From: Chloranthus sessilifolius
Taxonomy: Eukaryota; Streptophyta; Magnoliopsida; Chloranthales; Chloranthaceae
Assembly: GCA_021018995.1 (NCBI GenBank)
Contig: CM037586.1
Span: forward strand, 9,093,328 to 9,157,327
Length of the DNA stretch: 64,000 nucleotides
Reading direction: 5' to 3'
Shown: positions 989-51,551 of the stretch, piece after piece
Position numbering within the stretch: the first letter of the stretch is position 1
How the letters are laid out: each line of letters opens with the position of its first letter
Notes under the pieces: model-generated
Databases searched by the model: none
What the model saw: only the letters and a program-made list of their open reading frames with translations
What the model was told of the DNA's origin: nothing
Program-made: the position numbers and the translations under genes

Positions 989-1512
989 TCAATCGATTGA
1001 TTTGTGAAAATCGATCGATTGATTCAAAACTGAGAACAGTATTCAGACAGTTTACCTTATCACTCAATCAATTGAAATTTGAAAATCAATCGATTGAGAC
1101 AGTAAGCACTGTTAGGACAAAACAAATAACACAAACTGAATTGGTAACAGTTCAAACTTTATCAATCGGTTGAGGTGAATCAATCGATTAACTCAAATCT
1201 TTGTTCCTTAGTCAATCAGTTGATTTTTTACAATCAATCGATTGAAATGGATCAGAAGATGGAGTTTACCAATTTGAAGCAATTTAGAGTCAATCGATTG
1301 ACTGGCAAAACAGTGAAATGAATTTCAGATTTCGAGCATAGAAGAATTTTTCAATGACAACAGAAATTTATTTGATGTTTTTTTTTGTCACAGTTCAAAT
1401 CAATCGATTGATTTTTATAAATCAATCGATTGAAGTGAAACAATGAGCAGAAATACAACACAAATCTCTGCTTCTCAGTCAATCAATTGAATATGAGAAA
1501 TCAATTGATTGA
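989..1512. repeat. Array of 12-bp palindromes (TCAATCGATTGA type) in copy A leader
   Basis: About 13 sites of TCAATCGATTGA or one- to two-base variants lie between the PBS and gag. Most come in pairs whose starts are 22 bp apart, for example 989/1011, 1397/1419 and 1479/1501, with unrelated 10-nt spacers. One pair near 1167/1185 is closed up to 18 bp. Two further pairs lie in the LTR (about 2547/2569 and 2621/2643). Variants such as TCAATCAATTGA fit C-to-T decay of the central CG in this older copy. Confidence 0.9.
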
Positions 1513-1566
1513 CTGACAAAACAGAGAACAAAAATCTCCTAAAATTAACAAAATTTCGATGCTTCC

Positions 1567-1581
1567 CTAGTAGCAGCGCCA
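1567..1581 (-). other. Primer-binding site of copy A (tRNA-Asp-like, degenerate)
   Basis: On the minus strand the sequence just inside the LTR reads TGGCGCTGCTACTAG. It corresponds to TGGCGCCGCTGTCGGG in copy B, and Athila-type elements are known to use a tRNA-Asp-complementary PBS. It lies 6 bp from the LTR end. Several mismatches show decay. Confidence 0.65.
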
Positions 1582-1587
1582 AAAACT

Positions 1588-13151: not shown

Positions 13152-13156
13152 TAAAC
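13152..13156. repeat. Target-site duplication of Tekay-like element, left copy
   Basis: TAAAC directly before the LTR start (TGTGACAG at 13157), matched by TAAAC at 26089-26093 directly after the other LTR. A 5-bp duplication is the normal product of Ty3/Gypsy integration. Confidence 0.9.
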
Positions 13157-15792
13157 TGTGACAGCCCGGACTTCGGCACCCCGAAACCCGTGCCATCAGC
13201 ACGATCATCTTGACCGTGCCCCTCAACTATGCACGGAACACTGGTATATCAAGCATAAAATAAATAAGAACAACTTGCGGAATTTAAATCTACATAGAAA
13301 TACTTCTCAAAAGACAGTTCTACCCTCATGCCTCTGCATGAAGGGAGAACCGATCCGAACCATCGATGATTACCATCATCATGGATGGTTCGCCCAAAAG
13401 AATACACTGATATCCATATACACAAGGTTTAATCAAAAACCAGGCTTGACATACCAAGCCGTACAATCTCCAACTAAAACTCCTCAAGGTCGCACAGCAG
13501 AGTCCTCTAGAAGAAGTCCTCTGGAGGTGGCTCTAACTCCTCGCCGGCCGCAAGGTCCGACTCACCGGGGTCAGCGTCTCCTGAAGCCTCGGCAGCTGCT
13601 AGCAGTGGACCTGCGACGTATAGTCTATAGGGTGAGCTACATCCTAGCTCAATAGGGAACAGAACACAATTGAACATATAAAATATAACTCACATGTATT
13701 CTATGATATGCATGCATGATATGTCTATGCATTTATTGATGAAAAACAGTTAAAAACACTTCAATTACTGGTAGATTACTCATGTCTTTTAGTTAATCAT
13801 GAATGATGTTGAGAAGGCCTAAAGCAAAACTTAAACTTCAACTTAAGTAATCCCCGAGCAATATAGCATCGAGCCCCGACGAGATACCCTTCATCGTCAT
13901 CTATATAGACAGTTTTAAATGTATTCCCTGGGAATACCAATAGTACCCAAGCCCCTTTCCCCTGGGGATTGGTGGCGGGGTTTCACATCTCATCAACACC
14001 CCTGGGGTGTGCTTACTCTGTACGGATAAGCCTCCGTACTGGCCTACGGATTAGCCGCCGTATCGGTCACGGATATCCTGTCGCGTCAGTCGTGGTTATC
14101 CCGCCACGTCGGTGGGGTAACCTATCAAACCTCAAATAACAAAAATATCGGTGCCTTACATATAGTTATTCACCGTGTAATTGTGCTATCTTATATCAGT
14201 TAGGCCTCATCAAGCATGATTCAATCATGGATACATCCCTGGGATGTATCCATTCACTTGCATCACACCTGATGCCTTTACTTCTTCACTTCATCATCCC
14301 CTGGGGATGGTTCATTTAAGTTCTCTCCTGAATGTCACACACGCACACTTTTCATAATCATTGAGTAGTAAAAACATTTGAATTGAATTGATATCACTAC
14401 ATACATGCTCTTGTAAAATAAAGTACATGTTCAGGGTGTTCCCTACCTCAAGTCTTCACTTGATCAATGCATCAAGGTCCCACGTGACTCCTTGTGCACC
14501 AGTCCACACGTATCACCTATGGTACCACATCACAGGTGAAACACATCACAAAGGATGCCATAAAGAAGGTATAAGATCCCCCAAGAATCTTAAAGTCAAA
14601 CCAAAAGTCAACATAGTTTACTACAGTCGATTAATCGAACTCCAAAATCGATTAATCGAATCTGATTCGATTAATCGATTTCCAAAATCGATTAATCGAA
14701 AGTCAATATCGATTAATCGAAGCAATTTCGATTAATCGAAATTTTCCTTTTCGCAAAGTCCATTCTCGCTCAATAAATAAGAATTGTCATTCGACATCGA
14801 ATCCAATTTCGATTAATCAAATTCTTCTTTTCAGTAAATTCACCGCTAATAATGAGTTTTCATTCGATTAATCGAATCCAATTGCGATTAATCGAAATCC
14901 TTCTTTGCGCAAAGCAGACGCTTAGTTCGAATAGTCGAGTTGCACAAGCTGGTTAATCGATGCCAAATCGATTAATCGAAACCTAAATCGATTAATCGAA
15001 AACCCATTTCGATTAGTCGATTTTTTCTTAAGTTATATCCTCCAACCCCTGGGGTCCTCTGGAGGTTCTCAGTCGATTAAACGATTCACAAATCGATTAA
15101 CCGAAATCCAAAGTCGATTAATCGAAATCCAATTCGATTAGTCAAATCGGGTCCTCTCGACTCTTCAACTTCTGCCAATTTCGATTAATGAAACCCAATT
15201 TCGATTAATCGAAATTGTCGATTCACCCTTTCGATGTTCTTCCCAATCTTTTCCATACTTTTCTTCTATTTTTCTAAGCCATTATCCTATGATTTAACCC
15301 ACATTTTATCGCAACTTAACCCCTATAATCTATGCACCTTATTTACAAAAATTTTACCTTGAATAGATCTTAAGTTGATTTCAAATCTAGGGTTGGAAGG
15401 TTAGGGTTCCAGCTTTGGTTTCTAACGGATCCAAGTCGCGTTGAATCCGGCTTTTATCTCTTGAATCCCCCCCCTCCAATCGGTTGCAATAACTCCTCTC
15501 TTACTTTTCTCTCTCTCTCTCTTCTTTACTCTCCTTCAACAACCAACAATACACATCTAGGGTTATTAAACCCTTTTATCCCCTTTTTCTCTCTTGTGTG
15601 TTGAGCACATACACCGCGGTAGGTGTATGCGACTTCACATTTACAACACACATCACATAGGCATTCTATTTTTCACATCTCATCCGTTCATCACACTACA
15701 TACTGACTGTTGGGCTTCCATTTGGTCAAACCTATGACCGATCGGGCACGGATCCCGAGGTCATAGTTTGTGTGATTTTTCGGGCTATTACA
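13157..15792 (-). repeat. 3' LTR of Tekay-like element
   Basis: In plus-strand orientation it runs from TGTGACAGCCCGG to CGGGCTATTACA, so in element sense it is TGTAATAGCCCG...CCGGGCTGTCACA with TG/CA ends. Long blocks are nearly identical to the 5' LTR (23487-26088), broken by a few patches dense in small indels. ORFs inside (such as 13158-13655) are chance frames. CCTGGGGAT-type words recur at 13960-14310. Confidence 0.93.
14627..15212. repeat. Palindrome array TCGATTAATCGA in 3' LTR
   Basis: At least fifteen perfect or near-perfect copies of the 12-bp palindrome. In the first cluster the starts are 14627, 14648, 14667, 14688, 14709 and 14728, steps of 21, 19, 21, 21 and 19 bp. Spacers of 7-9 nt are not conserved. 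The array lies in the transcription-proximal half of the LTR in element sense. Confidence 0.95.
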
Positions 15793-15803
15793 TCCTCCCC
15801 ACC
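15793..15803 (-). other. Polypurine tract of Tekay-like element
   Basis: On the minus strand GGTGGGGAGGA directly precedes the 3' LTR start TGTAATAG. A TTCGAGGACGAAAATT stretch lies just upstream, a common pre-PPT context in plant chromoviruses. This primes plus-strand DNA synthesis. Confidence 0.85.
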
Positions 15804-17754: not shown

Positions 17755-18373
17755 TCGATTAATCGAAATTCTGTTTCGATTAATCGAAATTTAAAACTAG
17801 GTTAAGCCGCGTAAAATCGATTAATCGATTTCCCAAATCGATTAATCGAAAGTCAAATTCGATTAATCGAAAATATTTCGATTAATCGAAATCGTGTCTG
17901 TTTAAAATTTCAAATTTTTAAGCGCACTGGCGCTTCCCAGTCGATTAATCGAAGTCCATTTCGATTAATCGAAATTCCAAAGTCGATTAATCGGATTTAG
18001 TTTCGATTAATCAAATCGCCATAACTTCAACTTTTTCTAAACTTTCTTAAGTATTCGAATAATCGAAATCCATTTCGATTAATCGAAATTTCAAAATCGA
18101 TTAATCGAAATCACTTCGATTAATCGAAATTGTCCATTTGACTTTAATATCTCTCAAGTCCTTTAAGTAACTCGATTAATCGAAAATCCAATTCGATTAA
18201 TCGAACAAAATCGATTAATCGAAATTATAATTGATCAATCAAACTTCATTCTATGTATATTCTAACTCAAATTTTTCATTTCCAGTCACTGGCACATGCC
18301 AGTCGACTAATCGAACAAAATCGATTAATCGGAATTCCAAATCGATTAATCGATTTGAAATTCGATTAATCGG
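17755..18373. repeat. Palindrome array TCGATTAATCGA, internal, between accessory ORF and pol
   Basis: More than fifteen sites, in clusters of two to four with 6-10-nt spacers (pitch 18-22 bp). Copies range from perfect to one-base variants (TCGAATAATCGA, TCGATTAATCGG). It sits directly after the pol stop, so it is in the 3' untranslated or intercistronic part of the element RNA as well as in the DNA. Confidence 0.93.
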
Positions 18374-18515
18374 TTTTGTCCAATTTCTCCAGAATTTCAG
18401 TCTCTTTGTTTCTTTTACTATTCTTGACAATTTATAACAGATTGGATCAAAATTTCCATTGAATTTCAAGTATAGTGGAAATTTCACAAACGTGGTTGCG
18501 GTTTACATTGAATTC

Positions 18516-23470: not shown

Positions 23471-23486
23471 GGCTTTGATAATTAAC
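23471..23486 (-). other. Primer-binding site of Tekay-like element (initiator tRNA-Met-like)
   Basis: On the minus strand TTATCAAAGCC follows the 5' LTR end within 5 bp. It resembles TGGTATCAGAGCC, the usual initiator-methionine PBS of plant chromoviruses, with mismatches. Confidence 0.6.
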
Positions 23487-26088
23487 TGTGATGACCGGGA
23501 CTTCGACACTCAAACCCGTGCCATCAGCACGATCATCTTGACCGTGCCCCTCAACTATGCACGGAACACTGGTATATCAAGCATAAAATAAATAAGAACA
23601 ACTTGCGGAATTTAAATCTACATAGAAATACTTCTCAAAGAAGTTTCTACCCTCATGCCTCTCGCATGAAGGAGAATCGATCCAACCATCGATGATTACC
23701 ATCATCATGGATGGTTCACCAAAAGAATACAATCGATATCCATATACACAAGGTTTAAAAACCGTGCTTGACATACCAAGCCGCATACAATCTCCAACTA
23801 AAACTCCTCAAGGTCGCATGACAGAGTCCTCTAGAAGAAGTCCTCTGAGGTGGCTCTAACTCTCGCCGCCGCAAGGTCCCACTCACCGGTCGTCTCAAGC
23901 TCCTAATGCTAGCAAAGTGGACCTGCGACGTATAGTCTATAGGGTGAGCTACATCCTAGCTCAATAGGGAACAGAACACAATTGAACATATAAAATATAA
24001 CTCACATGTATTCTATGATATGCATGCATGATATGTCTATGCATTTATTGATGAAAAACAGAAAAAAAACACTTCAATTACTGGTAGATTACTCATGTCT
24101 TTTAGTTAATCATGAATGATGTTGAGAAGGCCTAAAGCAAAACTTAAACTTCAACTTAAGTAATCCCCGAGCAATATAGCATCGAGCCCCGACGAGATAC
24201 CCTTCATCGTCATCTATATAGACAGTTTTAAATGTATTCCCTGGGAATACCAATAGTACCCAAGCCCCTTTCCCCTGGGGATTGGTGGCGGGGTTTCACA
24301 TCTCATCAACACCCCTGGGGTGTGCTTACTCTGTACGGATAAGCCTCCGTACCGGACTACGGATTAGCCGTCAGTCGGCCACGGATATCCCGCCGCGTGG
24401 GTTATCCCGTCCACGCTTGGGGTAACCTATCAAACCTCAAATAACAAAAATATCGGTGCCTTACATATAGTTATTCACCGTGTAATTGTGCTATCTTATA
24501 TCAGTTAGGCCTCATCAAGCATGATTCAATCATGGATACATCCCTGGGATGTATCCATTCACTTGCATCACACCTGATGCCTTTACTTCTTCACTTCATC
24601 ATCCCCTGGGGATGGTTCATTTAAGTTCTCTCCTGAATGTCACACACGCACACTTTTCATAATCATTGAGTAGTAAAACATTTGAATTGAATCGATATCA
24701 CTACATACATGCTCTTGTAAAATAAAGTACATGTTCAGGGTGTTCCCTACCTCAAGTCTTCACTTGATCAATGCATCAAGGTCCCACGTGACTCCTTGTG
24801 CACCAGTCCACACGTATCACCTATGGTACCACATCACAGGTGAAACACATCACAAAGGATGCCATAAAGAAGGTATAAGATCCCCAAGAATCTTAAACTC
24901 AAACCAAAAGTCAACATAGTTTATTACAGTCGATTAATCGAACTCCAAAATCGATTAATCGAATCTGATTCGATTAATCGATTTCCAAAATCGATTAATC
25001 GAAAGTCAATATCGATTAATCGAAGCAATTTCGATTAATCTAAATTTTCCTTTTCGAAAAGTCCATTCTCGCTCAATAAATGAATTGTCATTCGACATCG
25101 AATCCAATTTCGATTAATCAAATTCTTCTTTTCAAAGTAAATTCACCGTTCGAACAATGAAGTTTTCATTCGATTAATCGAATCCAATTTCGATTAATCG
25201 AAATCCTTCTTCGCAGCGTACTCTTAGTTCGATAGTCGAAGTTTCACAAGTTGATTAATCGATTCCAAATCGACATCGAAACTAAATCGATTAATCAAAT
25301 CCCATTTCGATTAGTCGATTTTTCCTGTTATTTCCTCCAACCCTCGGGTCCATCGAGGTTCTCAATGATTAATCGATTCCCAAATCGATTAATCGAAATC
25401 CAAAGTCGATTAATCGAAATCCAAATTCGATTAGTCGAAATCGGGCTCCTCTGACTCTTCAACTTCCTGGCCAATTTCGATTAATCGAAACCCAATTTCG
25501 ATTAATCGACATTGTCGATTCGATCCTTCATGTTTCTTCCCAATCTTTTCCATACTTTTCTTCTATTTTTCTAAGCCATTATCCTATGATTTAACCCACA
25601 TTTTCTCGCAACTTAACCCTATAATCTATGCACCTTATTTACAAAAATTTTACCTTGAATAGATCTTAAGTTGATTTCAAATCTAGGGTTGGAAGGCTAG
25701 GGTTCCAGCTTTGGTTTCTAACGGATCCAAGTCGCGTTGAATCCGGCTTTTATCTCTTGAATCCCCCCCCTCCAATCGGTTGCAATAACTCCTCTCTTAC
25801 TTTTCTCTCTCTCTCTCTTCTTTACTCTCCTTCAACAACCAACAATACACATCTAGGGTTATTAAACCCTTTTATCCCCTTTTTCTCTCTTGTGTGTTGA
25901 GCACATACACCGCGGTAGGTGTATGCGACTTCACATTTACAACACACATCACATAGGCATTCTATTTTTCACATCTCATCCATTCATCACACTACATACT
26001 GACTGTTGGGCTTCCATTTGGTCAAACCTATGACCGATCGGGCACGGATCCTGAGGTCATAGTTTGTGTGATTTTTCGGGCTATTACA
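23487..26088 (-). repeat. 5' LTR of Tekay-like element
   Basis: From TGTGATGACCGGG to CGGGCTATTACA in plus orientation. It aligns end to end with 13157-15792. Blocks such as 23925-24345 and 25530-26088 are almost identical to the 3' LTR, but patches at about 23637-23920, 24349-24420 and 25045-25510 hold many small indels. It carries the same palindrome array at 24929-25510. Confidence 0.93.
24929..25510. repeat. Palindrome array TCGATTAATCGA in 5' LTR
   Basis: Same array as in the 3' LTR. The first six sites keep the 21/19/21/21/19-bp steps, while later sites are more degraded (for example TCGACATCGA in place of a full site). Confidence 0.93.
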
Positions 26089-26093
26089 TAAAC
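26089..26093. repeat. Target-site duplication of Tekay-like element, right copy
   Basis: TAAAC, identical to 13152-13156. Confidence 0.9.
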
Positions 26094-29587: not shown

Positions 29588-30847
29588 TTTGAAATATGAC
29601 TATATTTCACACCTTAAATCCTACATTTAGCTGTTCGATGAAAGCATCTGATGGTTGTTGTGAGGTTTTAATGTTTACAGGTGTTTCCGACCATTAGATC
29701 GTTCAAAAGCCTAAAAGGAGGAAATTAAAGGCTATGCAAGAGCTATGGACAAAAAGGTCCAAAGAAGCATTGAGATCCGAGAAGAGAATCAATATCCATC
29801 AAGAAATGAGACTTTACATTGAAGAAGCAATCGATTGAGGAATCATTGTCAATCGATTGACAGATGAAATAAACTTCAACCCTGAAAATCAATCGATTGA
29901 GACACGAAAATCAATTGATTGACACATAAGGTAAAAGTGCCCTAAAAAAATTCGAACTCAAATTCAATCGATTGAGACTTCTGGCTCAATCGATTGAGGC
30001 AATTAGGTTTAGGTGTGCTCGGCCATTATAAAAAGGAAGCTAAAGCTTTGAATAGAGGACTCTTTGTTTTTGGAGTGGGTGTTGAGATCTTTTGAGATTT
30101 TTCTTTGGGAAACTTCTTTTCATCTTTTTAAGGTCTTCTTCTCTCTTTCTTCTAGGGTTTTGATTAGGGTAGATTGTACCTAGGATTTGCATTGTTTTCT
30201 TTTAAAGCATAGATTGTATTTAGGAGAGAGCATTGTAAACAAATATCTTTTGGGAAGAAATAAAAAGAGGAGTGACTTTGAATGAACAAGGAGATTATAC
30301 ACCAAAGATGAGCGGCTAAATCTGTAGATCGGGGAAGATGCGATCTCCAGATAAGTACCCATATTTATGATTAATACCATAGTCTAATATTTTTATTGTT
30401 TTGATCTACACATCATGAGATACGCTATGCTTCTTACATGACTCATACCGCAATGATAGGCTGAGTCATTGTTTTTAGATAGGGTATGCCGGATTGATGA
30501 TCATACTTTATTTCAAATCATTTTTATGAATGAATGATGGTGTGAATGATGCTTTAATGAAAGGGGGGTACAAATCTGGGGTAGCATATTTCTTGATCTA
30601 ATTTAAATAATTGTTCTTAGATTCATCGGTAATTAGTTGTTTAGATTAATTTATTTTTCTGCATTTAGGAAAAAGTGATAAATTTTTTGTAAATTGAATC
30701 TGCCCCTTGGTACTTCCTTGGGGATGTTTTTAAATCCCTGAAAGAATTAATTAAAAATTCAGATTTTCCTGTGGGTTCGACACCCTTGGTCTTGCCATAC
30801 TGCAATAGATCTTGTGGACTTGCAAGGGTTACATTTAAAATCGATCA
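29588..30847 (+). repeat. 5' LTR of Athila-like copy B
   Basis: 1260 bp, ending AAAATCGATCA just before the PBS. It carries three palindrome pairs, each at 22-bp pitch (29827/29849, about 29889/29911, about 29963/29985). A TATAAAA box follows at 30027-30033, so the palindromes lie directly upstream of the promoter. The first bases (TTTGAAATATGAC) differ slightly from the 3' LTR start (TGCTGAAATATGAC). Confidence 0.92.
30027..30033 (+). promoter_or_regulatory. TATA box of 5' LTR, copy B
   Basis: TATAAAA (context GGCCATTATAAAAAGG) lies about 35 bp after the last palindrome pair. The same box occurs in the 3' LTR at 41828-41834. It is the expected start of element transcription. Confidence 0.65.
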
Positions 30848-30853
30848 AGTTTT

Positions 30854-30869
30854 TGGCGCCGCTGTCGGG
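30854..30869 (+). other. Primer-binding site of copy B (tRNA-Asp-like)
   Basis: TGGCGCCGCTGTCGGG, 6 bp after the LTR end. It differs from the complement of the plant tRNA-Asp 3' end (TGGCGCCGTTGCCGGG) at two positions. Such a PBS is typical of the Athila lineage. Confidence 0.8.
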
Positions 30870-30941
30870 AAATTTCGGTGAAATTTTGATTAATTCGGAT
30901 TAGGATTTGTTTTTTTTTTTTTTTTTTTTTGTTTCTAGCAA

Positions 30942-32077
30942 TCAATCGATTGAGAATTCTTCCTCAATCGATTGACTCTATTATGTGGTGGAGAAACTAC
31001 TTGACAGACAATCAATTGAGACCTTCTTGTCAATCGATTGACTGTGTCTTGTGTTTTTATCAGCACTTCTGCGTCAATCGATTGACACTAACTTGTCAAT
31101 AGATTGACACCAAAAAAAAAAAAAATTTAATTCAAAAAAAAAAAAAAAAAAAAAAAATCTTTAATTCTGAAAATTTGGAAGTTTGTGGATTTGAAATATG
31201 AAATTTGGTGCTTAAAGGTTGATTTTTTATTTTCGAACTTAAATTTTTGCAATTAGAATTTTTGAAATTTAATTTCTAAATTAAATGTTGATTTTCTTGT
31301 GTGAATTTTGATTTTTGAATTTAAAAAGAAAAAAAAAAAAAAACTAATATTTAGATTTTTGATTTGCAAAATCTTCTTTCCCTTATTTTTCTCTCTTAGG
31401 TAAGTTTTTGTAGGACTCTTTTAGGAAGTTTAGGTTTTTAGGACTTCTTATTTTAGTAGGATTCTTTTTCCTTATTTTCCTCTTTTAGATATTCTAGGAT
31501 TTTCTAAAATTAGTTATTAATTTTTTTTTTTTAGGAAGTTTATAAATTTAGGATACCTTCCTTAGGAAATTTAGGAATCTTTTATTCTTTCCCTTATTTT
31601 TCTTTTTTAGATAAGATTCTTAGGATTGCCATTAGATTTAAAATTTTAATTTCTAATTTTAATCTTGAAAATTTAATTTTAATTTTTGAAATTTGAAATT
31701 TAATTTAATTTAATTTTAAAATAAAATAAAAAAATTTAAATTAATTTATCTTGTTTTGCTTTTCTTTTCTTCTTATTTTGGCCACTGTTCATATTAGAAC
31801 TCAATCGATTGAAGCTTCAGGTTCAATCGATTGAGACTGAAATATTCTCTGTTGTGATCTTTGCTTTTCTTTCAATCGATTGACATTCCTCTGTCAATCG
31901 ATTGACAAAAATTATGTGCTTGCCATTTCGGCTGAAATTCCTGTGTTAACTTGCTTTGACCTTTGAACCTCAATCGATTGAGAACAGTTCTTCAATCGAT
32001 TGACTGATATAGTCATTTCTGTGAAATTTTAAGTGTGCTTTTATTAATCGATTGAGACCTTTGCTGCAATCGATTGA
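30942..32077. repeat. Palindrome pairs TCAATCGATTGA in copy B leader
   Basis: Seven pairs, each at exactly 22 bp start to start: 30942/30964, about 31008/31030, 31073/31095, 31801/31823, 31872/31894, about 31970/31992, 32044/32066. Spacers are 10 nt and unrelated (for example AGCTTCAGGT and CATTCCTCTG). Between the second half and the PBS lies AT-rich leader with poly-T and poly-A tracts. Confidence 0.95.
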
Positions 32078-32246
32078 GCCTATTTTGTGGATTTGTTTTG
32101 GATTCTTTAATCCCTGTTTGTGAGCGTGGTGTATGAGCTTTACTCGTTTTCATCACCCACATCTGCTACCGTTTAATCTTGAGATCAAACAATCTTGTAG
32201 AGAGAATCGTAGAATTCAAAGGAATCAGTATCATCATACTGATACC

Positions 32247-33464
32247 ATGGCTGATCAAAGGCAAGAAATGAATGGGAACAACCAAAATATCAATAATGGC
32301 AATAATGAAAATAATGGAAATGATGGGAATAACAATTACAATGAGGGCCCTAGAACACTCGAATATTATAATGATCCTGGTTTTTACGAAGATCAGGAAT
32401 GTATAATGCATGATCCCATTCCAGGAAACCACTATGAATTCAAATCAGTGATGATCCAAATGCTACCAATTTTCCATGGGTTAGCAAATGAAAATCCGCA
32501 CATTCATCTAAATGAATTCACTGGGGTATGCAAAATGTTCAGAGTCCACAATGTCATTGATGAGATAGCTAAACTCCGACTCTTTCCTTTCTCTTTAAGG
32601 GACAAGGCAAAAACGTGGTTTTATTCCTTAGAACCGCAATCTATTCAGAGTTGGGCAGAGCTACACCGTCAGTTTCTTAAAAAATATTTTCCCATGACCA
32701 AAGCCATTGAGTTGCGTCAGAAGATTCAATTCTTTTCCCAACAACCTACTGAAACATTCCATGAATGTTGGAAACGTTTTAAGGAATTGATTAAGAGTTG
32801 TCCAAATCATCAAGTTCCAAGGTGGCAACAGGTCTAAAGTTTTTATAATGGACTGATTCCTGAAGAGAGACGCATAGTTGATGCATCGTGTGGTGGATCA
32901 TGTGCCACAAAAGAAGCTGATGAATTGTGGGCATTGTTTGAGAAGTTATACCAAACTTCGATACAAAGTGAAACAGGCGAACTAACTTGATTTGGCATCT
33001 AAATCTCATGTGTTGACAAGAGATGGATTGTATAATGTCAAAATAATACCTCGATCTATCAACAAAGGTTGATATGTCTTGTCCAAGCAAATGAATATGT
33101 TGTTAGTTGCGACCAAGCAAGCTAAAGCTCTCACCCCATCAGGTTCAATTTGTGACCACCCAGGTCACATGGCTAATGAGTGCCCCACTACCTTGTCATT
33201 ATTCCCTGATGAACCTACTCCTCAAGAGCAGGTGAATCTAACTCAATCTTATCAACGGCAGGGTAGAAACATATACTCCAATACCTATAACCCGAAATGG
33301 AAAAATCACCCCAACTTAGGACGGGGTGGTTCGAACCAAACTGGTCAGGTAAACCAGCAGTACAGAACCAACACAATGGGCGGACAACAAAATTTTCGCC
33401 CACAACAGAATTCCACTTCCCAGCAGAATTATAATTGGCCATCAAAAGATTCAATTTCGACATG
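32247..33464 (+). pseudogene. gag: gag of Athila-like copy B (nonsense codon and frame changes)
   Basis: The ATG at 32247 gives MADQRQEMNGNN, then an asparagine-rich segment. The retrotransposon gag domain runs from about 32400 to 32990 (IAKLRLFPFSLRDKAKTW, QFLKKYFP, HECWKRFKELI, FYNGLIPEERR). A CAA codon has become TAA at 32835, cutting the domain. After a frame change a weak zinc-knuckle relic, CDHPGHMANEC, lies at about 33150, with a glutamine/asparagine-rich tail to 33440. An upstream in-frame ATG at 32133 exists, but copy A supports the MADQR start. It can make at most a truncated Gag. Confidence 0.88.
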
Positions 33465-33839
33465 CAAGCCGCAGGATCAAATCGACGGCTACAGTTGAGT
33501 GAACTGGACGAACTATGCTACGATGCGTATGAAAATTCGAAAATGTACAAAGAAAGATACAAGCAGCTTCATGATGAGTCAATTTCTCAAAAAGAGTTTC
33601 ACATTGGGCAAAAGGTTTGGCTGTTTAATTCCAGACTAAAGCTTCACCCTGAAAAACTGAAATCTAGATGGGAAAGCCCGTATCAGGTTGTTTCCATTAA
33701 TATGCATGGTGCAATTGAGATCCATAGTCTCAAGGACAATCGAGTTTTCAAAGTCAATGGGCAACGTCTCAAACCAATGTTTGAGCCAATCACCCAGTTT
33801 AAGATTGAGTTGATGCACCTCAGTGACCCAAATGATTGA
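33465..33839 (+). pseudogene. Integrase C-terminal remnant fused behind gag by internal deletion
   Basis: The frame opens at 33435 and from about 33490 reads LSELDELCYDAYENSKMYKE, HIGQKVWLFNSRLKLHPEKL, RWESPYQVV, VFKVNGQRLKPMFEP. This is the C-terminal DNA-binding part of Athila/Tat integrases and ends at a natural stop (33839). Everything between the gag tail and this point (protease, RT, RNase H, integrase zinc finger and core, normally about 3.5 kb) is missing. The junction is near 33440-33480. It is a deletion derivative that keeps both cis ends, not a random truncation. Confidence 0.85.
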
Positions 33840-34547
33840 TCAATGAAAAGGTCGAGCTGGCGACACTTAAACTCAGCGCTTCCTGGGAGGCAACCCAGTT
33901 TGTTTTATTTTCTGTTTCATCTTTATTTTTGTCTTTTTTTTTGTTTTTGTTCATATTCAGTGTTTTTCAATCGATTGACTGTGAAAAGTCAATCGATTGA
34001 CCCTTGTTTATCAATCGATTGACATGTACCTGTCAATCGATTGAGAATTTCCAACATCATCATCATTTTCCTCTTCTTGTGTCAATGGATTGAGAGGTAT
34101 GTGTCAATCGATTGACACCATATAAAATTGTGTGCAGTCCTTGGGATTTGAAGCGCCAATCGACACATCTTGTCGGGGCAGCTAACTTTTCAAGCACGTT
34201 TGGCTCAATCGATTGAGGATGGTATCTCAATCGATTGAATTAATGGGATAATTAAAGCTCTCATTTCCGAGGGCACCTAACCGGTGCGCCTCTTCGACAA
34301 CAGGTTTCCTCAATCGATAGACCCATCAGTCTCAATCGATTGAAATTTATGGAGGAATTGTGATGAGCCACGTCTCCTCCACATCTGCCAGATGTCGCTC
34401 CGGCTTCGCAACGTGGGCATCCCAACCATTCTCAATCGATTGAGGTTCAATTTATATAAGTGGCAGCCCCAACCCGTGGAGCCCTCATCCGACTTCAATC
34501 CACTCCATTTCAAGCCAATCATCTATATTCTCCTCGTACGCGATCGA
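33840..34547. repeat. Palindrome array between pol remnant and accessory ORF, copy B
   Basis: Four sites in strict phase at 33967, 33989, 34011 and 34033 (all 22 bp). Pairs follow at about 34081/34103, 34204/34226 and 34308/34330, and a single site at 34431. Spacers are 10 nt. The palindromes avoid the coding blocks on either side. No ORF recognised in the remainder. Confidence 0.93.
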
Positions 34548-35670
34548 ATGGCAGCGCCTGGCCCACCACTCTTCCGTCAATCGCGTCCCGCCAATGATCC
34601 GATGCGCATCCCCAATGAGCACTATTTCAATCGCTAGTTCCAAACGGAAAATTTCTCAAATCGTCGCAGTGAATGCCCGCTCGATCGAATTCATTGAGTC
34701 CTTGCGATTGGAAATGTTGCTTGCCCCTCCACCCATCGATGTCTCTCTGCTCCTGATCCGTCTGTTTTATCAGAAAATGGTATGGGTACCGGAAACACTA
34801 TCGCCCACAGGAATGCCCTACATTACCATCGAGATCAACAACTGGCAATATAATCTGCATGCCGCCGATCTCGCGCGTGCCTTCAATTTTTATGTGGTTC
34901 GACCGCGTGAACCACCACATTAATCCGCGATTGATCGTAGTCGACGACATGATCAATGATATGTGGAGGCACCGCTACGGTCGTGCCACTAGACGATCTG
35001 TTCTTCCGATGGACATTCTCTTTTGGGATATCGTCATGGCAAACAACCTCCTACCGCATGGCACGAGCGAGGACCAAGAATAGGGTATTGCAAGCATACA
35101 AACGCTTGGTTCGATGCGCCAGGTCTGATGCTCGAGGAGATGTATCGTTGCCACAGTGATATAGCCACCACCACCGTACCCACTAAGCGTGCAGCGATTC
35201 TCCTCCATTTCCCACATTATGTGATGCACCTTTTGGATCACCTCGGCTGCCCCATCTATGATGATGAGGAGTTAGGCGACATGCAATTTTACCAGTATGG
35301 TGTCAATGTGTGGGATAAGATCATGAAAGCGATCCTTCGTGTGCAGCCACCCCTGATTGCAGTTGACGATGTACCTCCTCCTCCCCGTCCTAACCCCACA
35401 CAACGCCAACATGGCGGTGTAAGACGACCTCGTCCCGAAGAGGTTCCTGATTTTGATGCCGAGGCAGCTGTTACTCGCCTTGAGGCGCGGATGGATGGGC
35501 TGAATGCGAGGCTTGGTGGTGTTGATCGACGGTCAAGGTTTCAAACTTCTCTCCTCATGCGGATGGCCCGGGAATCGTTCCCTGGGCGTGCCGACGAGTT
35601 TATCGTCTGGCCGGCGATGAACGAGGAGAGGGACCCTGAATATGATGATGATGATGATGTTAATGTTTAG
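34548..35670 (+). pseudogene. Accessory (env-position) ORF of Athila-like copy B, frameshifted
   Basis: Starts at ATG 34548 (MAAPGPPLFRQSRPANDPMR). After frame changes it continues with IEFIESLRLEMLL, LLLIRLFYQKMVWVPE, YITIEINNWQYNLHAADLAR (34650-34900), IVVDDMINDMWRHRYGRA and ILFWDIVMANNLL (about 34930-35070), then LLHFPHYVMHLLDHLG and MQFYQYGVNVWDK (35190-35320). The end is a coil-like segment with a poly-Asp tail. Plant Athila elements are known for an extra ORF at this position, often called env-like. I see no signal peptide or convincing transmembrane helix here. The layout instead resembles the putative plant transposon-protein domain. At least two frameshifts. Confidence 0.65.
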
Positions 35671-38600
35671 TTTGTTTTTGTGTCGTTCTTTTTACGTTTA
35701 GTGTTTAGTGTTTAGTGCTTTGTTTTGTTTCATTTTTTTTTCGTTGTTTATGGTGTTGTTAATTTTTGTTTTTCATTTAAATCCATTAGGGGTGTCGGGC
35801 CTCGGTGTAATCAATCGGACAAATCAATGGAATTAGCTTTCTTTTTTGTGTTAATTGTTATGGTACTTCTCGGTTTGGTGCACAAGTGCATCAGTCAATC
35901 GATTGAGGCTTCTCTCTCAATCAATTGCGCACTTTTCTATTAGCAGTTCATGCAACTCAACTCCTCACAGTCAATCGATTGAGAATTTATTCTCAATCGA
36001 TTGATTGCTGCATCCGAAACAGGCAAATTCTAAAAATAGACATTTCTTTTAGCTATAGTTGGTATCCTGTGTCAATCGATTGACAATGGAATGTCAATCG
36101 ATTGATTTCGCATAATCGGCCGGTCAAATTAATCACTACTTGAACTTTCCACTCAATCGGGAAAGTCACCTTTGCTCGGCACCACTATGCTTGCCAACTT
36201 TTGTCAATCGATTGACACTAAATCACAATCGATTGATCATTCTAGTGCACCAACTAGTCCGCCGCTCGAATCTGTTAGAGTTCTAGTGAGTCTTTTGAGC
36301 CTTTATTTGAGGAAACTTTTAGTTATTTAAGGAACCCGTAGGGTAGTCCTTTGAGTTAAAATCAGTTTTCCTTTCCCAATTCTCAGCTATGTCGTCCATT
36401 GATCGCACTGCAGCCGAGATAAAAAGATGATGAGCTCGCGACCAAACGTGCACGTTATCATGCTCCGCCACCGCCAATCAACTTGTCCAATCATGCTGTC
36501 ATCAATCTTGATGATGAATTTCCTCTTGAAGTCCGCTCTATTTTCACGCACTCCACCGAGGCCGCTCCCGCCCCCTTTCCGCCTCTCTTAACAACACCTC
36601 CACCGCCACCTTTCTCACCACCCCATACATCAATACCGGGAATCATACGATGTGGCGCTACGCGTTTCCAAAACTGAGGGAAGACGGTTCTACCATGGAA
36701 GACTAGAGGATTAGGGTTTTCTGTTTTAGGGTCTAGTTTTCAGAGTCTTTCAGTTATATTTGCTTTTAACGTGTTAGGTTAGGTTTGATTTTGCTTAATC
36801 TAGGGTAGAATTTTAATTTTGCATTATTTGTCAGAGTTTTTTTTTATATATATATTTGTTTAGATCTTTGTGTTTACCTTTTCTTTCACTTGATCTAGTT
36901 CTTTTTGGCCCTCGAGTGCATTAAACAGGTTTGGGGGGGTCTCCCCTCCTATTTTCAACATCCGCACCAATGAGGACATTGGACAGTTCAGGTTTGGGGG
37001 GGGTAAATTCGGTAAAGCGCCAAAAAAAAAAGAGAAAAGAAAGACTGATTTTCGGACCTTGTCAGCCAATCAATTGAGGTTGTGGTCTCAATCGATTGAC
37101 TGCCAACCATAAAAAAAAAAATTTGGGAATTGTCAATAGTCAATCGATTGAGGAATCATTGTCAATCGATTGACTGATGACAGGAAGGCTAATGAAATTC
37201 GATTTTTTTTCCCTTAAATTGTGAATGACCTGAATTTCTTTAAAAGTTTGTTATCACACCACGTTTGTTTTAATGAATGCTCATAAAGTTCAAAATTAAA
37301 ATAGCGATATTCATAATCTATGCCTGAAAATTTATACACCACCACGTGGCTCCAATTCCAAGTTTGAGAATAAAGTGTATGACTTGAAATTTTTAAATCA
37401 CAAGAAAGGCTTCAACCCAGTGAGTTTCGAAACCTTATCTTCGTTCTTGATGAGTGTGGAAATAACTTCGGAGTATCTTTGAATTCCTGCTTCAATTGTT
37501 AACATCTCATTTACTTTTCTTTGATTTGTTTATTGTACGTGTGGTATACCATTACACTAGACATCAATGTGTATTAACTCAAAGCAGATAGGCATATTTT
37601 ACCATAATGAAAGGAAATGATCTAAGGCCATCTTTGGCTCGTTTTTGCTTAAAATGACCCACCTCATAAATGTATCATTCTAGTACCCTTTTGAGCCTAT
37701 TGGAAAATTTACCTTTATATATTCTTCGATAAGCCACATTAACCGTTAACCCTCTACCATTTCTGAAAATTCAGCTTTACCCTTCTTATTTCTGAGAAAT
37801 TAGGAACGATGGATGAAAATGAGTGAAAAGAAAGTACGTGGAGAGATACTGAGTTGTGGTGTTTACTAAGGGTGTATGGCAAAAATATAAAAGAAAAGGG
37901 GGGAGAAAAAGAAAAAGGGAAAGAAAATTTGAAAAAATAGTGAAAAATATGAGGTGTTTTAAGAAAAGGAAAACAAAGGAAAAGCAAATTGAAAAAAAAA
38001 AAAAAAAAGAAGAAAAATAGTGAGAAAGTAGAAAAAAAAAAAAAAAAAAAAAAAAGAGAGATAGAGAAAATAGAAGTTTGTTTCTTTTCCAATTTCTCAG
38101 AAAATTTGAATCCAAATTCCCTTTCTTTCTTTTACCTTTACCCGAGCCCCATTACAACCTTAGAAAAGACCTTTTTGATCCAATCATGAGTGGTAAATGC
38201 CTTGTGGAGAGTAATTACACATTGTCTATGGTGCTTGATATATCCATGTTTAAAATACAAATATCTTTCTTAATGAGATCTCGGTTAAAACTCTTTGATA
38301 CACCGTCTTTCGCATAAATTGTGAGAGTTCTCTAAATTGCATTGTAACTCCATCTCACATGTGCGTGAAACATAAAATCCATTCATCAGGAGCGATTTCA
38401 TTCTGAGTGTATATCCATGATAAGGATTGAGTCAAGACATGTGATCAAAAGATGCCTAGTTTAAGCTTCTTCTCAGGCAAAATAAAATTTGAGCAGTGAT
38501 GATTGCATAACATTAATGCATAGAGTATGAGCATTGAAAAACAGTGGACTAATGTGAATGAGCATTAATAAAATAAGCATGGTCGAATGCATTTTAAATG

Positions 38601-38892: not shown

Positions 38893-38909
38893 TGCTGAAA
38901 TATGACTAT

Positions 38910-38914
38910 ATTTC
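38910..38914. repeat. Target-site duplication of nested solo LTR (ATTTC), left
   Basis: ATTTC here and again at 41405-41409, flanking TGTAAT...GTCACA. The uninterrupted 5' LTR has ATTTC once at this position. Confidence 0.93.
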
Positions 38915-41404
38915 TGTAATATCTTGAAAAATCGCTTCAAACAGTGACCTCGGGATCCGTGCCCGATTGGTCATAGGTTTGACCAAACAAGAGTTCACAA
39001 GTTAACGTAGGATACGATGAACGGACGAGATGTGAGGATTCGAGTGAATATGGGGAGTGTGATGAAAATCTGGAGTTACATACACCTATTAAGGTACATG
39101 TGCTCAACACACAAGTTAGAGGGGAGATAAAAGGGTTTAATAGCCCTAGTTTCTCTTTTATTTGGTTCATTGAGAGAGAGTAAAGAAGAGAGAGAGAAGG
39201 AGAGCATAGTTAATGCAAGGAGTAAATGCTAGTTGAGGAGGGATTCGAGCAATAAACGCCGGATTCGACGCGAGGGATCCGCTAGAAGCAAAGCTGGAAA
39301 CCCTAGCCTTTTCAACCACTTAACCTAATCAATTGAAGATTGATTGAAGGTAAAATTCTTGTAAATTGAATGCATAGATCGAAGGGTTTAATTGTAGTTA
39401 GGAATGGTTAAAAATCATAGATTAAAGGCTTAGAAAAAGAAAGAAAATAAATGGAGAAAGATTTGGAAGAACAGCCAGAAGGGGGCAAAATCTGGCAATT
39501 TCGATTAATCGAAATTGGGTTTCGATTAATCGAAATTGGTCAAGAAGTTGAAAAGTCAGAGGACCCCGATCTCGATTAATCGACTTTGGATTTTGATTAA
39601 TCGAATTTGAATTCGATTGATCGACTAGGAACCCACAGTGAACTCCAGTGGAGGAAAGAAAACAGCTTGGAGAAATCGACTAATCGAAATGGGAATTCGA
39701 TTAATCGATTTAAAATTTCGATTAATCAATTTGGAATCGATTAATCGATTTTGGAAATTCGATTACTCGAATTGAGAATCGACAGGATAGAGTAGAAAAT
39801 TTCGATTAATCGAATGGGAATCTCGATTAATCGATTTGAGAATCGATTAATCGATATTAACTTTCGATTAATCCATTTTGGAAATCGATTAATCGAATCA
39901 GATTCGATTAATCAATTTTGGAGTTCGATTAATCGACTGGGCTAGTTTATATTGACTTTTGAGTTTGACTTTAAGCTTCATGGAGGATCTTAGACCTCCT
40001 TTATTGCATCCTTAGTGATGTGTTTCACATGTTATGTGGTACCATAGGTGGTACGTGTGAACAAGTGCACAAGGAGCCACGTGGGACCCTGATGCATTGA
40101 TCGAACGAAGACTTGAGGTAGGGAACACCTTGAACATGTACTTTATTTTACAAGAGCATGTATGTAGTGATATAGAATTCAATTCAAAATATTTTTATTG
40201 CTTAAGAATTGTGAAAAGTGTGTGTGTGTGGCATCCATAAGAGTAATTATACTGAACCATCCCCAGGGGATGAGGAAGTAAAGAGATAAGAGCATCAGGT
40301 GTGATGCAAGTGAATGGATCCATCCTAGGGATGTATCCAAGATTGAATCATGTTTGATAGGGCCTAACTGATATAAGATAGCACATTTATACGGTGAATA
40401 ACTATATGTAAGGCACCAATATTTTTGTTATTTGAGGTTTGATAGGGTACCCCACCGTGTGATATCCACGATCGACACGACGGGATATCCGTGGATCGTG
40501 ACGGCGAATCCAGAGGCCTGAGGCTTATCCATACACAATAAGCACACCCCAGGGGTGTTGATTGAGACTAGTGAAACCCAGCCACCAATCCCCAGGGGAA
40601 AGGGGCTTGGGTACTATTTGTATTCCCAGGGAATACGTTAAAAGTGTCTATATAGATGACGATGATGGGTATCTCATCGGGGCTCGATGCTATATTGCTC
40701 GAGGATTACTTAAGTTGAAAGTTTATGTTTTGCTTTAGGCCTTTTCAGCATCATTCATGAATAAATAAAGACATAAGTAACTACCAGTAAAATGTAATGC
40801 TTTTAATTCTTTTCATCAACAACTGCATAGACACATCATGCATGGCATATCATGGAATATATGTGAGTGATAATTTATATGTTCAACTGTGTTTTGTTCC
40901 CTATTGAGCTAGGATGTAGCTCACCCTATAGACTATACGTCGCAGGTCCACTACTAGCAGCTGCCGAGGCTTCAGGAGACGCTGACCCCGGTGAGTCGGA
41001 CCTTGCGGCCGGTGAAGAGTTGGAGCCACCTCCTGAGGACTTCTTCTAGAGGACTCCGTTGTGCCGCTTTGAGGGCTTTTGGATAGAGATTTGTACGGCT
41101 TGGTATGTCAAGCCTTATTTTGGCTAAACAATGTATATGTATAAATTGAGATTATTCTTTTAGGGCGAACCATCCGTGATGATTTGCTATCATCGATGGT
41201 TCGGATCGGTTCTCCATTCATGCAGAGGCATGAGGGTAGAACTGTCTTTTGAGAAATACTTTTATATAGATTTAAATTCTGCAGTTTCATTTACTATTTC
41301 ATTTTTGCTTGATATGCCAATGTTCCGTGCTTAGTTAAGGGGCACGGTCAAGATGATCGTGCTGATGACACGGGTTTCAGAGTGCCGAGATCCGGGCTGT
41401 CACA
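38915..41404 (+). mobile_element. Solo LTR of Tekay-like family, inserted in the Athila-like 3' LTR
   Basis: 2490 bp from TGTAATATCTTG to CCGGGCTGTCACA. It is homologous along its length to the LTRs at 13157 and 23487 (in opposite orientation there) but diverged by many substitutions, so it came from another family member. It is flanked by a perfect 5-bp TSD and has no internal region: the product of LTR-LTR recombination after insertion. It holds its own palindrome array. Confidence 0.93.
39501..39936. repeat. Palindrome array TCGATTAATCGA in solo LTR
   Basis: About twenty perfect or near-perfect sites in opposite orientation to the other LTRs. The site sequence stays largely intact although the LTR backbone has diverged, which argues that the motif is maintained in the family. 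Confidence 0.9.
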
Positions 41405-41409
41405 ATTTC
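41405..41409. repeat. Target-site duplication of nested solo LTR (ATTTC), right
   Basis: Second copy of the ATTTC duplication. The Athila-like LTR sequence resumes here. Confidence 0.93.
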
Positions 41410-42648
41410 ACACCTTAAATCCTACATTTAGTTGTTCGATGAAAGCATCTGATGGTTATTGTGAGGTTTTTATGTTTACAGGTGTTTCCGACCATTAGAT
41501 CGTTCAAAAGCCTAAAAGAAGGAAATTAAAGGCTATGTAAGAGCTATGGACAAAAAGGTCCAAAGAAGTATTGAGATCCGAGAAGAGAATCAATATCCAT
41601 CAAGAAAGGAGACTTTACATTGAAGAGTCAATCGATTGAGGAATCATTGTCAATCGATTGATAGATGAAATAAACTTCAACCCTGAAAATCAATCGATTG
41701 AGACACGAAAATCAATCGATTGACACATAAGGCAGAAGTGCCCTAAAGAAATTCGAACTCAAATTCAATCGATTGAGACTTCTGGCTCAATCGATTGAGG
41801 CAATTAGGTTTAGGTGTGCTCGGCCATTATAAAAAGGAAGCTAAAGCTTTGAATAGAGGACCCTCTGTTTCTGGAGTGGGTGTTGAGATCTTTTGAGATT
41901 TTTCTTTGGGGAACTTCTTTTCATCTTTTTAAGGTCTTCTTCTCTCTTTCTTCTAGGGTTTTGATCAGGGTAGATTGTAACTAGGATTTGCATTGTTTTC
42001 TTTTAAAGCATAGATTGTATTTAGGAGAGAGCATTGTAAACAAATATCTTTTGGGAAGAAATAAAAAGAGGAATGACTTTGAATGAACAAGGAGATCATA
42101 CACCAAAGATGAGCGGCTAAATCAGTAGATCGGGGAAGATGCGATCCCCAGATAAGTACCCATATTTATGATTAATACCATAATCTAATATTTTTATTGT
42201 TTTGATCTACACATCATGAGATATGCTATGCTTCTTACATGACTCATACCGCAATGATAGGCTAAGTCATTGTTTTTAGATAGGGTATGCCGGATTGATG
42301 ATCATACTTTATTTCAAATCATTTTTATGAATGAATGATGGTGTGAATGATGCTTTAATGAAAGGGGGGTACAAATCTGGGGTAGCATATTTCTTGATCT
42401 TATTTAAATAATTGTTCTTAGATTCATCGGTAATTAGTTATTTAGATTAATTTATTTTTCTGCATTTAGGAAAAAGTGACAAATTTTTGGTAAATTGAAT
42501 CTGCCCCTTGGTACTTCCTTGGGGATGTTTTCAAATCCCTGAAAGAATTAATTAAAAATTCAGATTTTCCTGTGGGTTCGACACCCTTGTTCTTGCCATA
42601 CTGCAATAGATCTTGTGGACTTGCAAGGGTTACATTTAAAATCGATCA

Positions 42649-49728: not shown

Positions 49729-51551
49729 GGGTTTTTTGAATATACCCCCTGTGTTATGATAATATTATAAGAAACCCCCTGAGTTATGGGTATTTATTTT
49801 GTAGCCCCTACTTTTGTGTTTCATTTCGTATAACTCCCTCCACGTTAACTAGCCATGAGTTTATGACGGAAAGCCTATTTTGCTCTTAATGAAACCAATA
49901 TTTTAAAAATACCACCATTCTAAAAGGCCCTTCGTTCATCTATATTTACAAGTCATGCCATTAAAGTTTATCACCATTCTAAAAGGCCCTTCATTCACCT
50001 TTATTTACAAGTTATGCCATTATAATTGACCACTATTCTAAAAGGAATACCTTTAAATCCACCTACAAAATCTTTGAGTTCACCCATGCTGAAATACATC
50101 GACTGCATTGAATCAAACGATGGAGATTTTTTATCGTCCCAATCTTTCATGAGATCGATCTTTAGATCATGGGTGTACCATCAGACGGCCGATTTTTTAT
50201 TTCATGTGGTACACACCCCTAAAAAGCATGCACGTGATGTTAAGGTCACTTTTCTGAGATGCGTGCCACGTGAAATAAAACATTGATCGTCTGATGGTAC
50301 GATCATGATCTCAAGATCCATCATGTGAAAGATTGGGAGGATAGATGATATCCATCGTTCGATTCAATTTAATCAACGTGTTTCAGCGTGGGTGAACTTA
50401 AAGATTCAGTGGGTGGATTTAAAGGTACTCTTCTAAAAGGCCCTACCCATCAGATTCAAGACTCATCTGATGGGTGATTCCCCCATTAAAGCATGTCAAT
50501 GTTTGCACGGATACTCAGCCAACGGAGTATCTGTGGCAAACGATGTAATTATTCTTGAAAAGAAAACCTTCTATCTATATGTTCCACTCAAAATACTCAT
50601 CCCTCCAATTTCCTATATGATTCAAGACCCATTTTTAGGAATTGGATTGCCTAATCACGTCTTCTTCCATCCACTGAAATCTTTGAGTTCACCCACGTTA
50701 AAACACATTGATTGCATTGAATAAGACGATGGAGATCGTTTAGGCATACCATTAGACGATCAGTGTTTTATTTCGTGGCACACATCTCAGAAAGTGACCT
50801 TAACATCACGTATACGGTTAAAATTAATTTTAAGGTCATTTTTTTGAGTGTGTATCACATGAAATTAAAAATCAACCATCTGTTGGTGCCACCATGATCT
50901 CAAGATCCATCGTGTGAAAGGTTGGGACGATAAATAATATCCATCGTCCGATTCAATGCAATCAACTGTTTGATGGTGTCACCATGATCTCAAGATCCAT
51001 CGTGTGAATGGTTGGGGCGATAAACAACCTCCATTGTCCAATTCAATACAGTCAACAGCCTGATGGTGCCACCATGATCTCAAGATACATCGTGTGAAAG
51101 GTTGGGACGATAAATGATCTCCATCGTCTGATTCAATGCAGTCAACCGTCTAAAGGTGCCACCGTGATCTCAAGATCCATCGTGTGAAAGGTTGGGACGA
51201 TAAACGATCTCCACCGTCCGATTCAATGCAGTCAATGTTTTTCAGTGTGGGTGAACTCAAATATTTGGTGGGTGGATTTAAAACTACTCTTTTTGGTAAG
51301 TGGAGGGGTGGATTTAAAATTACTATTACAACGTGTAGAGGGTGGCAATTTAGTAATTTAATTTTAAAAAGGATAAATATGGTATTTAGGCTATTCTTTA
51401 ACGGCTGGTTAATCATTTAAAGTAGCATCCGTTAAAGATGGTGTTTTATGAACACCAAAATGCTAACTCAGGGGGTTTAAAGCAAATAGTTATAACTAGG
51501 GGGGTTATTTGTAATATCAACATAACTCAGGGGGGTATTTGCAAAAAACCC
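49729..51551. mobile_element. Non-autonomous Mutator-like (MULE) foldback element
   Basis: 1823 bp with long terminal inverted repeats. The left end is GGGTTTTTTGAATATACCCC then CTGTGTTATG; the right end, inverted, is GGGTTTTTTGCAAATACCCC then CCTGAGTTATG. A perfect 9-bp TSD flanks it. The TIR similarity extends about 150 bp, including repeated CCCCCTGAGTTA and TTTAACGG words. The interior holds no transposase, only copies of a 90-bp unit: inverted on the left (about 50080-50280), direct on the right (50881-51240). So the whole element can fold back. Related units lie elsewhere (45105-45400, 53270-53400). Confidence 0.88.
50881..51240 (+). repeat. 90-bp tandem repeat, four copies
   Basis: Starts at 50881, 50971, 61 and 151 of the next hundred block (51061, 51151): an exact 90-bp period. 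Each unit holds ACCATGATCTCAAGATCCAT, GTTGGGACGATAAA and CGATTCAATGCAGTCAAC with a few differences. An inverted, more diverged copy lies near 50100-50190. Confidence 0.93.

Follow-up and report, generated by a model that had tools for sequence, protein, structure and literature searches.

Paired palindromes at a rigid 22-bp pitch in two Athila-like retrotransposons of Chloranthus sessilifolius: putative sites for a dimeric DNA-binding protein

Closest described systems

The repeated motifs (RMs) of Sireviruses, elements of the Ty1/copia superfamily, are short palindromes present in 8-32 copies per element, conserved within the element and set in differing flanks (PMC2829016). A feature of this kind is described here from Chloranthus sessilifolius, where the 12-bp palindrome TCAATCGATTGA is arrayed through two Athila-like retrotransposons: copy B, on the plus strand, and the diverged copy A, on the minus strand. 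Both lie in 64,000 nucleotides of contig CM037586.1 (GenBank assembly GCA_021018995.1, positions 9,093,328 to 9,157,327, forward strand), and this whole stretch is called the window.

The likeness to Sireviruses extends to placement and composition. RMs form a cluster in the long terminal repeat (LTR) ahead of the TATA box, as in copies A and B; they recur upstream of the open reading frame (ORF) in ENV position, as at 33967-34443 of copy B; and they bear a CpG (PMC2829016). The Sirevirus Tnd-1 even has a motif, ACAATCGATTGT, with the same ten central bases as TCAATCGATTGA (PMC2829016, Table 3). The differences are equally clear. Apart from Tnd-1, Sirevirus motifs have a CGG-CCG core, whereas the core of copies A and B is AATCGATT, as in Tnd-1 (PMC2829016). 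RMs sit in the LTR and the linker, with 77/79 linker copies before ENV, whereas the palindromes here extend to the leader ahead of gag and, in copy B, to the 3' region; and no fixed pitch or pairing is described in the accessible part of that paper, in contrast to the rigid 22 bp found here (PMC2829016). Its authors considered RMs Sirevirus-specific when set against the classic Ty1/copia elements that they studied (PMC2829016). A maize paper reports that control regions of transposable elements are often arrays of sometimes palindromic repeats, and that the Sirevirus palindrome also occurs in Helitrons (PMC10760457).

Three other systems share part of the design. The VANC target arrays of VANDAL elements in Arabidopsis likewise consist of a short motif at high density in non-coding parts (PMC5735166, PMC10398659); however, VANDALs are DNA transposons, VANC21 has the motif YAGTATTAY, which is no 12-bp palindrome, the accessible text describes no exact pitch, and the factor is known and encoded by the element. 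SIRC cassettes of Arabidopsis combine short direct repeats with diverse spacers and occur in ATHILA2 and ATHILA6A as well; in contrast to the arrays here, they are defined bioinformatically, contain 2-8 repeats of any sequence, are palindrome-free in 1,666 cassettes (about 57%), and have no fixed pitch in the description available (PMC10342631). At the level of the single site, the homeodomain protein WOX14 recognizes a half-site, YAATYA, that resembles CAATC/GATTG, and how it binds as a dimer varies with the spacing of the half-sites and with cytosine methylation; yet its top dimer motifs are ER1 and ER0, followed by DR3-5 and IR6-8, whereas the half-sites here adjoin directly, as CAATC-GATTG, and have G in place of the expected A (PMC11765556).

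A search of the open-licence literature bears on how new the feature is. Among the matches listed, no paper describes palindrome arrays in Athila or a rigid 22-bp pairing, which is weak evidence of absence, and the accessible parts of five papers on Athila or related elements (PMC2410132, PMC6317226, PMC6911290, PMC11963269, PMC12046899) do not mention such arrays. As exact strings, TCAATCGATTGA occurs in 2 papers and CAATCGATTG in 20: judged by title and start of abstract, PMC2829016 is the only paper on retrotransposons among the CAATCGATTG matches listed. The first-pass annotation had stated that no description of phased palindromes in Athila elements was known; this stands for Athila within the matches listed, but the same kind of feature, including the same 10-bp core, has been published for Sireviruses (PMC2829016). 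The feature is of a kind already known.

Number and spacing of the palindromes

The window contains 46 exact copies of TCAATCGATTGA and 61 sites with at most one mismatch, compared with a mean of 0.41 and a largest value of 3 for the latter in 100 dinucleotide shuffles. Every one of the 61 falls within copy A (989-2632, minus strand), copy B (29827-37173) or the second LTR (41628-41798), in keeping with the dozens of sites first reported from the LTRs, leader, intercistronic region and 3' region of copy B. The individual positions given by the first-pass annotation are also correct, save that 29827 is GCAATCGATTGA, with one mismatch, rather than an exact copy.

The pairing at exactly 22 bp that it had proposed is borne out. 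When up to two mismatches are allowed, a partner at this distance is present for 14/17 sites in copy A (8 of the 17 exact), 40/43 in copy B (32 exact) and 6/6 in the second LTR (all exact), i.e. 60/66 altogether; the sites without one are 1162, 1180, 1290, 34432, 36204 and 36225. Thirteen more two-mismatch matches occur elsewhere in the window, 6 of them inside arrays of another palindrome. Nearest-neighbour distances of up to 30 bp equal 22 in 7/8 cases in copy A and 20/21 in copy B (27/29 together), the exceptions being 18 and 21. The pair 37140/37162, which repeats an LTR pair including its spacer, was left out of these neighbour counts and of the coding count below. No 22-bp lattice extending beyond the pairs was seen across copy B as a whole. 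The pairs themselves are spaced unevenly: start distances from pair to pair in copies A and B cluster at 71-79 bp, with 8 of the 18 distances below 200 bp within one 9-bp span (scan p 0.001, uniform null).

Position of the arrays

In the 5' LTR of copy B, three pairs in U3 (29827-29997) lie ahead of a TATA-like word, TATAAAA, at 30027-30033, as the first-pass annotation had it. Their 5' ends stand at -200, -178, -138, -116, -63 and -41 from this word, which is 29 bp past the last site. TATA-like words number 9 in copy B and 3 in copy A, and the reference word was picked by its position. The U3 array of the 3' LTR (41628-41798) has six exact sites in three pairs. Copy A, on the minus strand, carries two U3 pairs (2545-2654) with 5' ends at -141, -119, -65 and -43 from a TATA-like word at 2513, near-equal to the offsets -138, -116, -63 and -41 of the two TATA-proximal pairs of copy B.

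The remaining plus-strand arrays of copy B are spread over its internal part. Leader array 1 (30942-31107) holds three pairs on one 22-bp register with two slots empty; leader array 2 (31801-32077) holds four pairs and precedes gag; the intercistronic array (33967-34443) comprises a four-site run at 22 bp, three more pairs and one single site; 3' array 1 (35895-36236) has three pairs and two sites 21 bp apart; and 3' array 2 (37066-37173) has two pairs. The leader of copy A (989-1512, minus strand) contains five pairs and three single sites. The distribution is non-coding: none of the 41 sites counted in copy B lies inside the coding remnant, which makes up 2,698 bp out of 7,584 bp with bounds set by us.

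Divergence of sites and spacers

Three pairs, two in U3 and one after the primer-binding site (PBS), can be placed at corresponding positions in copies A and B; the first U3 pair of copy B and the other four leader pairs of copy A remain unplaced. At the three placed pairs, the sites are identical at 66/72 positions and the 10-nt spacers at 8/30. The 40-bp flanks agree at 84/240 positions without gaps and at 110/169 when gaps are free, a figure that is biased upward. A global alignment of the two U3 regions, which matches the distal sites otherwise than the manual placement does, gives 58/64 identical positions in site columns and 217/324 elsewhere, gap columns (13 and 62, respectively) being excluded. 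These identities, together with the similar TATA offsets, suggest that site sequence and pitch have outlasted their surroundings. Since the diverged copy A repeats the same design, with sites kept, spacers not kept and TATA distances alike, motif and pitch have probably been under selection in the active lineage.

The central CpG of the palindrome is kept in at least 47/58 sites; the observed/expected CpG ratio is 0.19-0.66 outside the sites in the array stretches, 0.75 in the whole window and 1.04 in the ORF2 remnant.

The conservation of palindrome and pitch with nearly free spacers, proposed from copy B, thus recurs in copy A. The companion claim that the spacers are unrelated is nearly, not wholly, correct: the spacer GGAATCATTG is repeated exactly at 29827 and 37140, and similar spacers are in mild excess, with 19/378 comparisons showing at most three differences against about 7 expected from column shuffles mixing A and B. 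A plain tandem repeat with a conserved spacer was rejected, as most spacers differ and this is the one exact copy.

The shared spacer also deserves mention in its own right. The complete pair with GGAATCATTG is common to the LTR (29827-29860) and the internal 3' region (37140-37173), a sign that a pair can be duplicated as a unit.

The two elements and neighbouring repeats

Copy B begins with a 5' LTR (TGAAATATGA ... ATCGATCA) at 29590-30847 of the plus strand, recognized by LTR-LTR identity and by the same start at 38896 and in copy A. The 3' LTR (38896-42648, plus strand), read as that of copy B from its identity and shared start, is interrupted by a solo LTR (38914-41404) of the other palindrome-bearing family described below. 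Positions 29604-30847 and 41405-42648 are 97.3% identical, with 33 differences in 1,244 aligned bases free of gaps. We infer that both LTRs belong to one insertion; no matching target-site duplication was seen beside them. The string TGGCGCCGCTGTCGGG at 30854-30869 (plus strand) resembles a PBS, and its form, TGGCGCCG.TGTCGGG, is presumably that of the Athila/Tat type.

Gag and a remnant read as pol occupy 32247-33836 of the plus strand and are palindrome-free inside. The Pfam family Retrotrans_gag (PF03732), which is not Athila-specific, matches gag of copy B with E 3.5e-19 and the gag part of copy A (1-829, minus strand, running off the window) with E 2e-5. We take the pol remnant to resemble the integrase end, a likeness without Pfam support; no reverse transcriptase (RT) was found in copy B. 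A broken remnant of an extra ORF2 follows in env-like position (34548-35667, plus strand, assigned by ORF position). Its pieces have zero Pfam matches, even at E 10, and the Athila ORF-1 model is unmatched; this model matches 16% of Athila elements (PMC6317226). The LTR of copy A (1590-2899, minus strand), assigned by similarity to copy B, has approximate ends at about 2899-1590, and positions 1-711 of copy A are 74.2% identical to copy B. Gag and the PBS type that we presume support an Athila-like assignment; copy A is cut by the window edge. Retrotrans_gag, found in the neighbouring Ty3 element too, and the presumed Athila-type PBS set the two copies apart from the Sireviruses, which belong to another superfamily (Ty1/copia). 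On the opposite strand within gag of copy A, positions 270-376 match the plant snoRNA family snoR71 of Rfam at 48.4 bits, possibly by chance or by derivation from a repeat.

Other palindromes are arrayed in the same window. The 12-bp palindrome TCGATTAATCGA occurs at 71 sites with at most one mismatch in another Ty3 element, whose gag, protease and RT lie on the minus strand. Its sites fall in the LTRs (13142-15793 and 23474-26092) and an internal stretch (17755-18385), and the solo LTR at 38914-41404, which interrupts the 3' LTR of copy B close to its beginning, belongs to the same family. Neighbour distances are 18-22 bp in 48/70 cases with a mode of 21, a looser pitch than in the Athila-like family. 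Spacer ends are complementary in 29/48 cases against 24.5 expected (p 0.08), and covariation is not significant. A satellite-like array at 55402-57921, with a unit of about 152-173 bp, contains 20-21 bp subrepeats with CTGACCTAGG and the inverse CCTAGGTCAG. With the TCGATTAATCGA element and the CTGACCTAGG-type array standing beside the Athila-like copies, palindrome arrays seem to be a device that elements in this part of the genome use repeatedly, each with its own sequence. A separate tandem repeat at 50872-51235 consists of four copies of a 90-bp unit with 86% matches.

Database searches beyond the window yielded little. In print, the exact string TCGATTAATCGA occurs in one paper, a bacterial one. 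The pair pattern had 0 matches in viral contigs, and the gag piece matched 1 stretch, with none confirmed. A close pair of the palindrome is present in 25 prokaryote genome records, of which two (L017 and L020) show a 34-base match at the 22-bp pitch; judged from record titles alone, they are taken for unrelated bacterial palindromes.

Interpretation of the arrays

With moderate confidence, based on sequence, we read the arrays as putative sites at which a dimeric DNA-binding protein would bind cooperatively and so act on the LTR promoter. The palindrome would be a dyad site for a dimeric, sequence-specific protein with the half-site TCAATC. The working unit would be two sites at exactly 22 bp, on which two dimers might bind cooperatively; as 22 bp is about 2.1 helical turns, they would face about the same side of the DNA. 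The helix alone does not force this value, since the neighbouring element with another palindrome has the looser 18-22 bp pitch. The U3 pairs could form an array that activates the LTR promoter from upstream, and the leader, intercistronic and 3' arrays could offer additional places to dock, whether to strengthen transcription or to hold the element in an open state. A host protein, perhaps of homeodomain type, is a likelier candidate for the factor than a product of the element; a shared host factor would fit the occurrence of ACAATCGATTGT as an LTR motif in Tnd-1, a member of another superfamily. A classical HD-Zip site, whose pseudopalindrome the first-pass annotation had likened to the palindrome but for one extra central base, is not supported: the classical 9-mer, presumably CAATNATTG with its one central base, is absent from copy A, copy B and the second LTR, and the centre of the palindrome has two bases. 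In the window, CAATNATTG occurs only at 58102 and 58468, outside these three.

Several observations weigh against such a role. Many sites follow the presumed transcription start at a distance of some 0.9 kb or more, which is unusual for a plain upstream activator. A TATA-like word at 34453-34459 (plus strand), 9 bp past the last intercistronic site and upstream of the ORF2 remnant, might mark an internal promoter; one was suggested for the Sirevirus ENV (PMC2829016), and the word would suit one for ORF2. This candidate was rejected: 3/9 TATA-like words lie within 40 bp of a site where 1.8 are expected (p 0.27). The LTRs of copy B give no sign of constraint on the sites after insertion, as 2/33 differences fall in sites, about what their share of 72/1,244 bp predicts; this is expected of a single copy. 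Of two pairs in which both sites have changed, one is exactly complementary, which suits a hairpin. No factor for CAATCGATTG was found in the open-licence literature among the matches listed. Finally, the comparison is limited to two elements of one window, with three pairs placed in both.

The main rival to a promoter-binding dimer is a VANC-like array, in which an element-encoded protein, e.g. the ORF2 product of an autonomous relative, would bind a dense non-coding motif and strip silencing marks along the element. It owes this rank to the distribution of the sites throughout the non-coding part, which resembles VANC target arrays in being dispersed, dense, exclusively non-coding and element-wide. 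VANC targets are short motifs within tandem repeats of the non-coding regions of transposable elements, and motif density matters for VANC21 localization (PMC5735166, PMC10398659); local duplication of the motif is hinted at here by the copied pair at 37140 and the 71-79 bp pair spacing; and antisense ORFs encoding a presumed DNA-binding domain are frequent in Retand, a related Ty3 lineage (PMC11963269). However, no DNA-binding protein is recognizable in copy B, whose ORF2 is broken and Pfam-negative, VANC is known from VANDAL elements, the string "palindrom" is missing from the main text of both PMC5735166 and PMC10398659, and for the look-alike Sirevirus arrays no element factor is named in the accessible part of PMC2829016. 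The explanation is possible yet unlikely. A broader version, in which Athila-type elements evolved anti-silencing or self-recognition independently of VANDAL, with an element-borne factor reading 22-bp dyad pairs across the non-coding parts and each element having a private palindrome code (here at least TCAATCGATTGA and TCGATTAATCGA), is doubtful. That the arrays are a non-functional by-product, a decayed tandem repeat of 22 bp or about 75 bp with inherited pitch, would account for the pair copied with its spacer (29827/37140), the six sites on one register at 30942-31107, the 71-79 bp cluster and some residual spacer similarity. Neutral decay would, however, strike sites and spacers alike and bring indels, whereas spacers of copies A and B are at chance identity (8/30) and sites at 66/72, and the coding remnants are site-free; this origin is already disfavoured and we consider it improbable. 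A silencing or chromatin landmark, by which a host factor would recognize CpG palindromes and methylate the element, draws on the 25 mismatches in 58 sites, of which 11 alter the central CG, 9 of the 11 by the C-to-T (or G-to-A) change expected from methylated CpG. Decay of this sort is usual in any methylated element, and an element should lose such sites, not keep and multiply them, which makes a landmark very improbable.

A different kind of rival places the function in RNA or single-stranded DNA, where each pair would form a hairpin whose stem measures about 12-15 bp and whose loop is short. Such hairpins might act in packaging, translation or reverse transcription of the genomic RNA, or might make the element a target of small-RNA silencing. 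Each pair is indeed an inverted repeat, 27/27 pairs tested can fold, and clusters of Sirevirus palindromes in maize are reported to draw small RNAs (Bousios 2016, cited in PMC10760457). The statistics, which comprise many tests on few pairs with uncorrected p values, point both ways. In copy B, the two end bases of the spacer complement each other in 12/20 pairs against 7.2 expected (p 0.013). The outer flanks (6/20) and the single-site flanks (15/42) are at chance level there, and for neighbours at distances other than 22 bp the count is 3/21; in copy A, spacer ends are at chance (4/7 against 4.3 expected). The real spacers give more stable folds than shuffled versions do (mean -1.8 kcal/mol, p 5e-5), but spacers exchanged between pairs fold equally well (p 0.61); when only the halves of spacers are exchanged, p is 0.08 in B, 0.50 in A and 0.11 for both copies. 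Complementary runs have p 0.034 for outer runs in A and 0.046 for inner runs in B, against 0.85 for inner runs in A and 0.25 for outer runs in B; total run length has p 0.05 in B and 0.13 in A. Among pairs with a changed site, just 1/15 has exactly complementary arms, namely the one noted above among the two pairs changed at both sites, and the stem sequence is fixed, though pairing alone would permit covariation. Individually extended palindromes were also considered and rejected, as single-site flanks are complementary at chance level (15/42 in B, p 0.38; 5/17 in A, p 0.72). The signal is weak and does not carry the hairpin model, which we consider rather unlikely; a protein that binds DNA is favoured instead, both by the fixed stem sequence and by the position ahead of TATA.

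Significance

Because sequence and pitch are fixed, the putative factor can be searched for directly, and the spacing could serve to tell cooperative binding from hairpins. Such arrays, with a rigid pair geometry and nearly free spacers, occur in Ty3/Athila-like elements, and neighbouring elements have arrays of other palindromes; this suggests that plant retrotransposons may use a general strategy.

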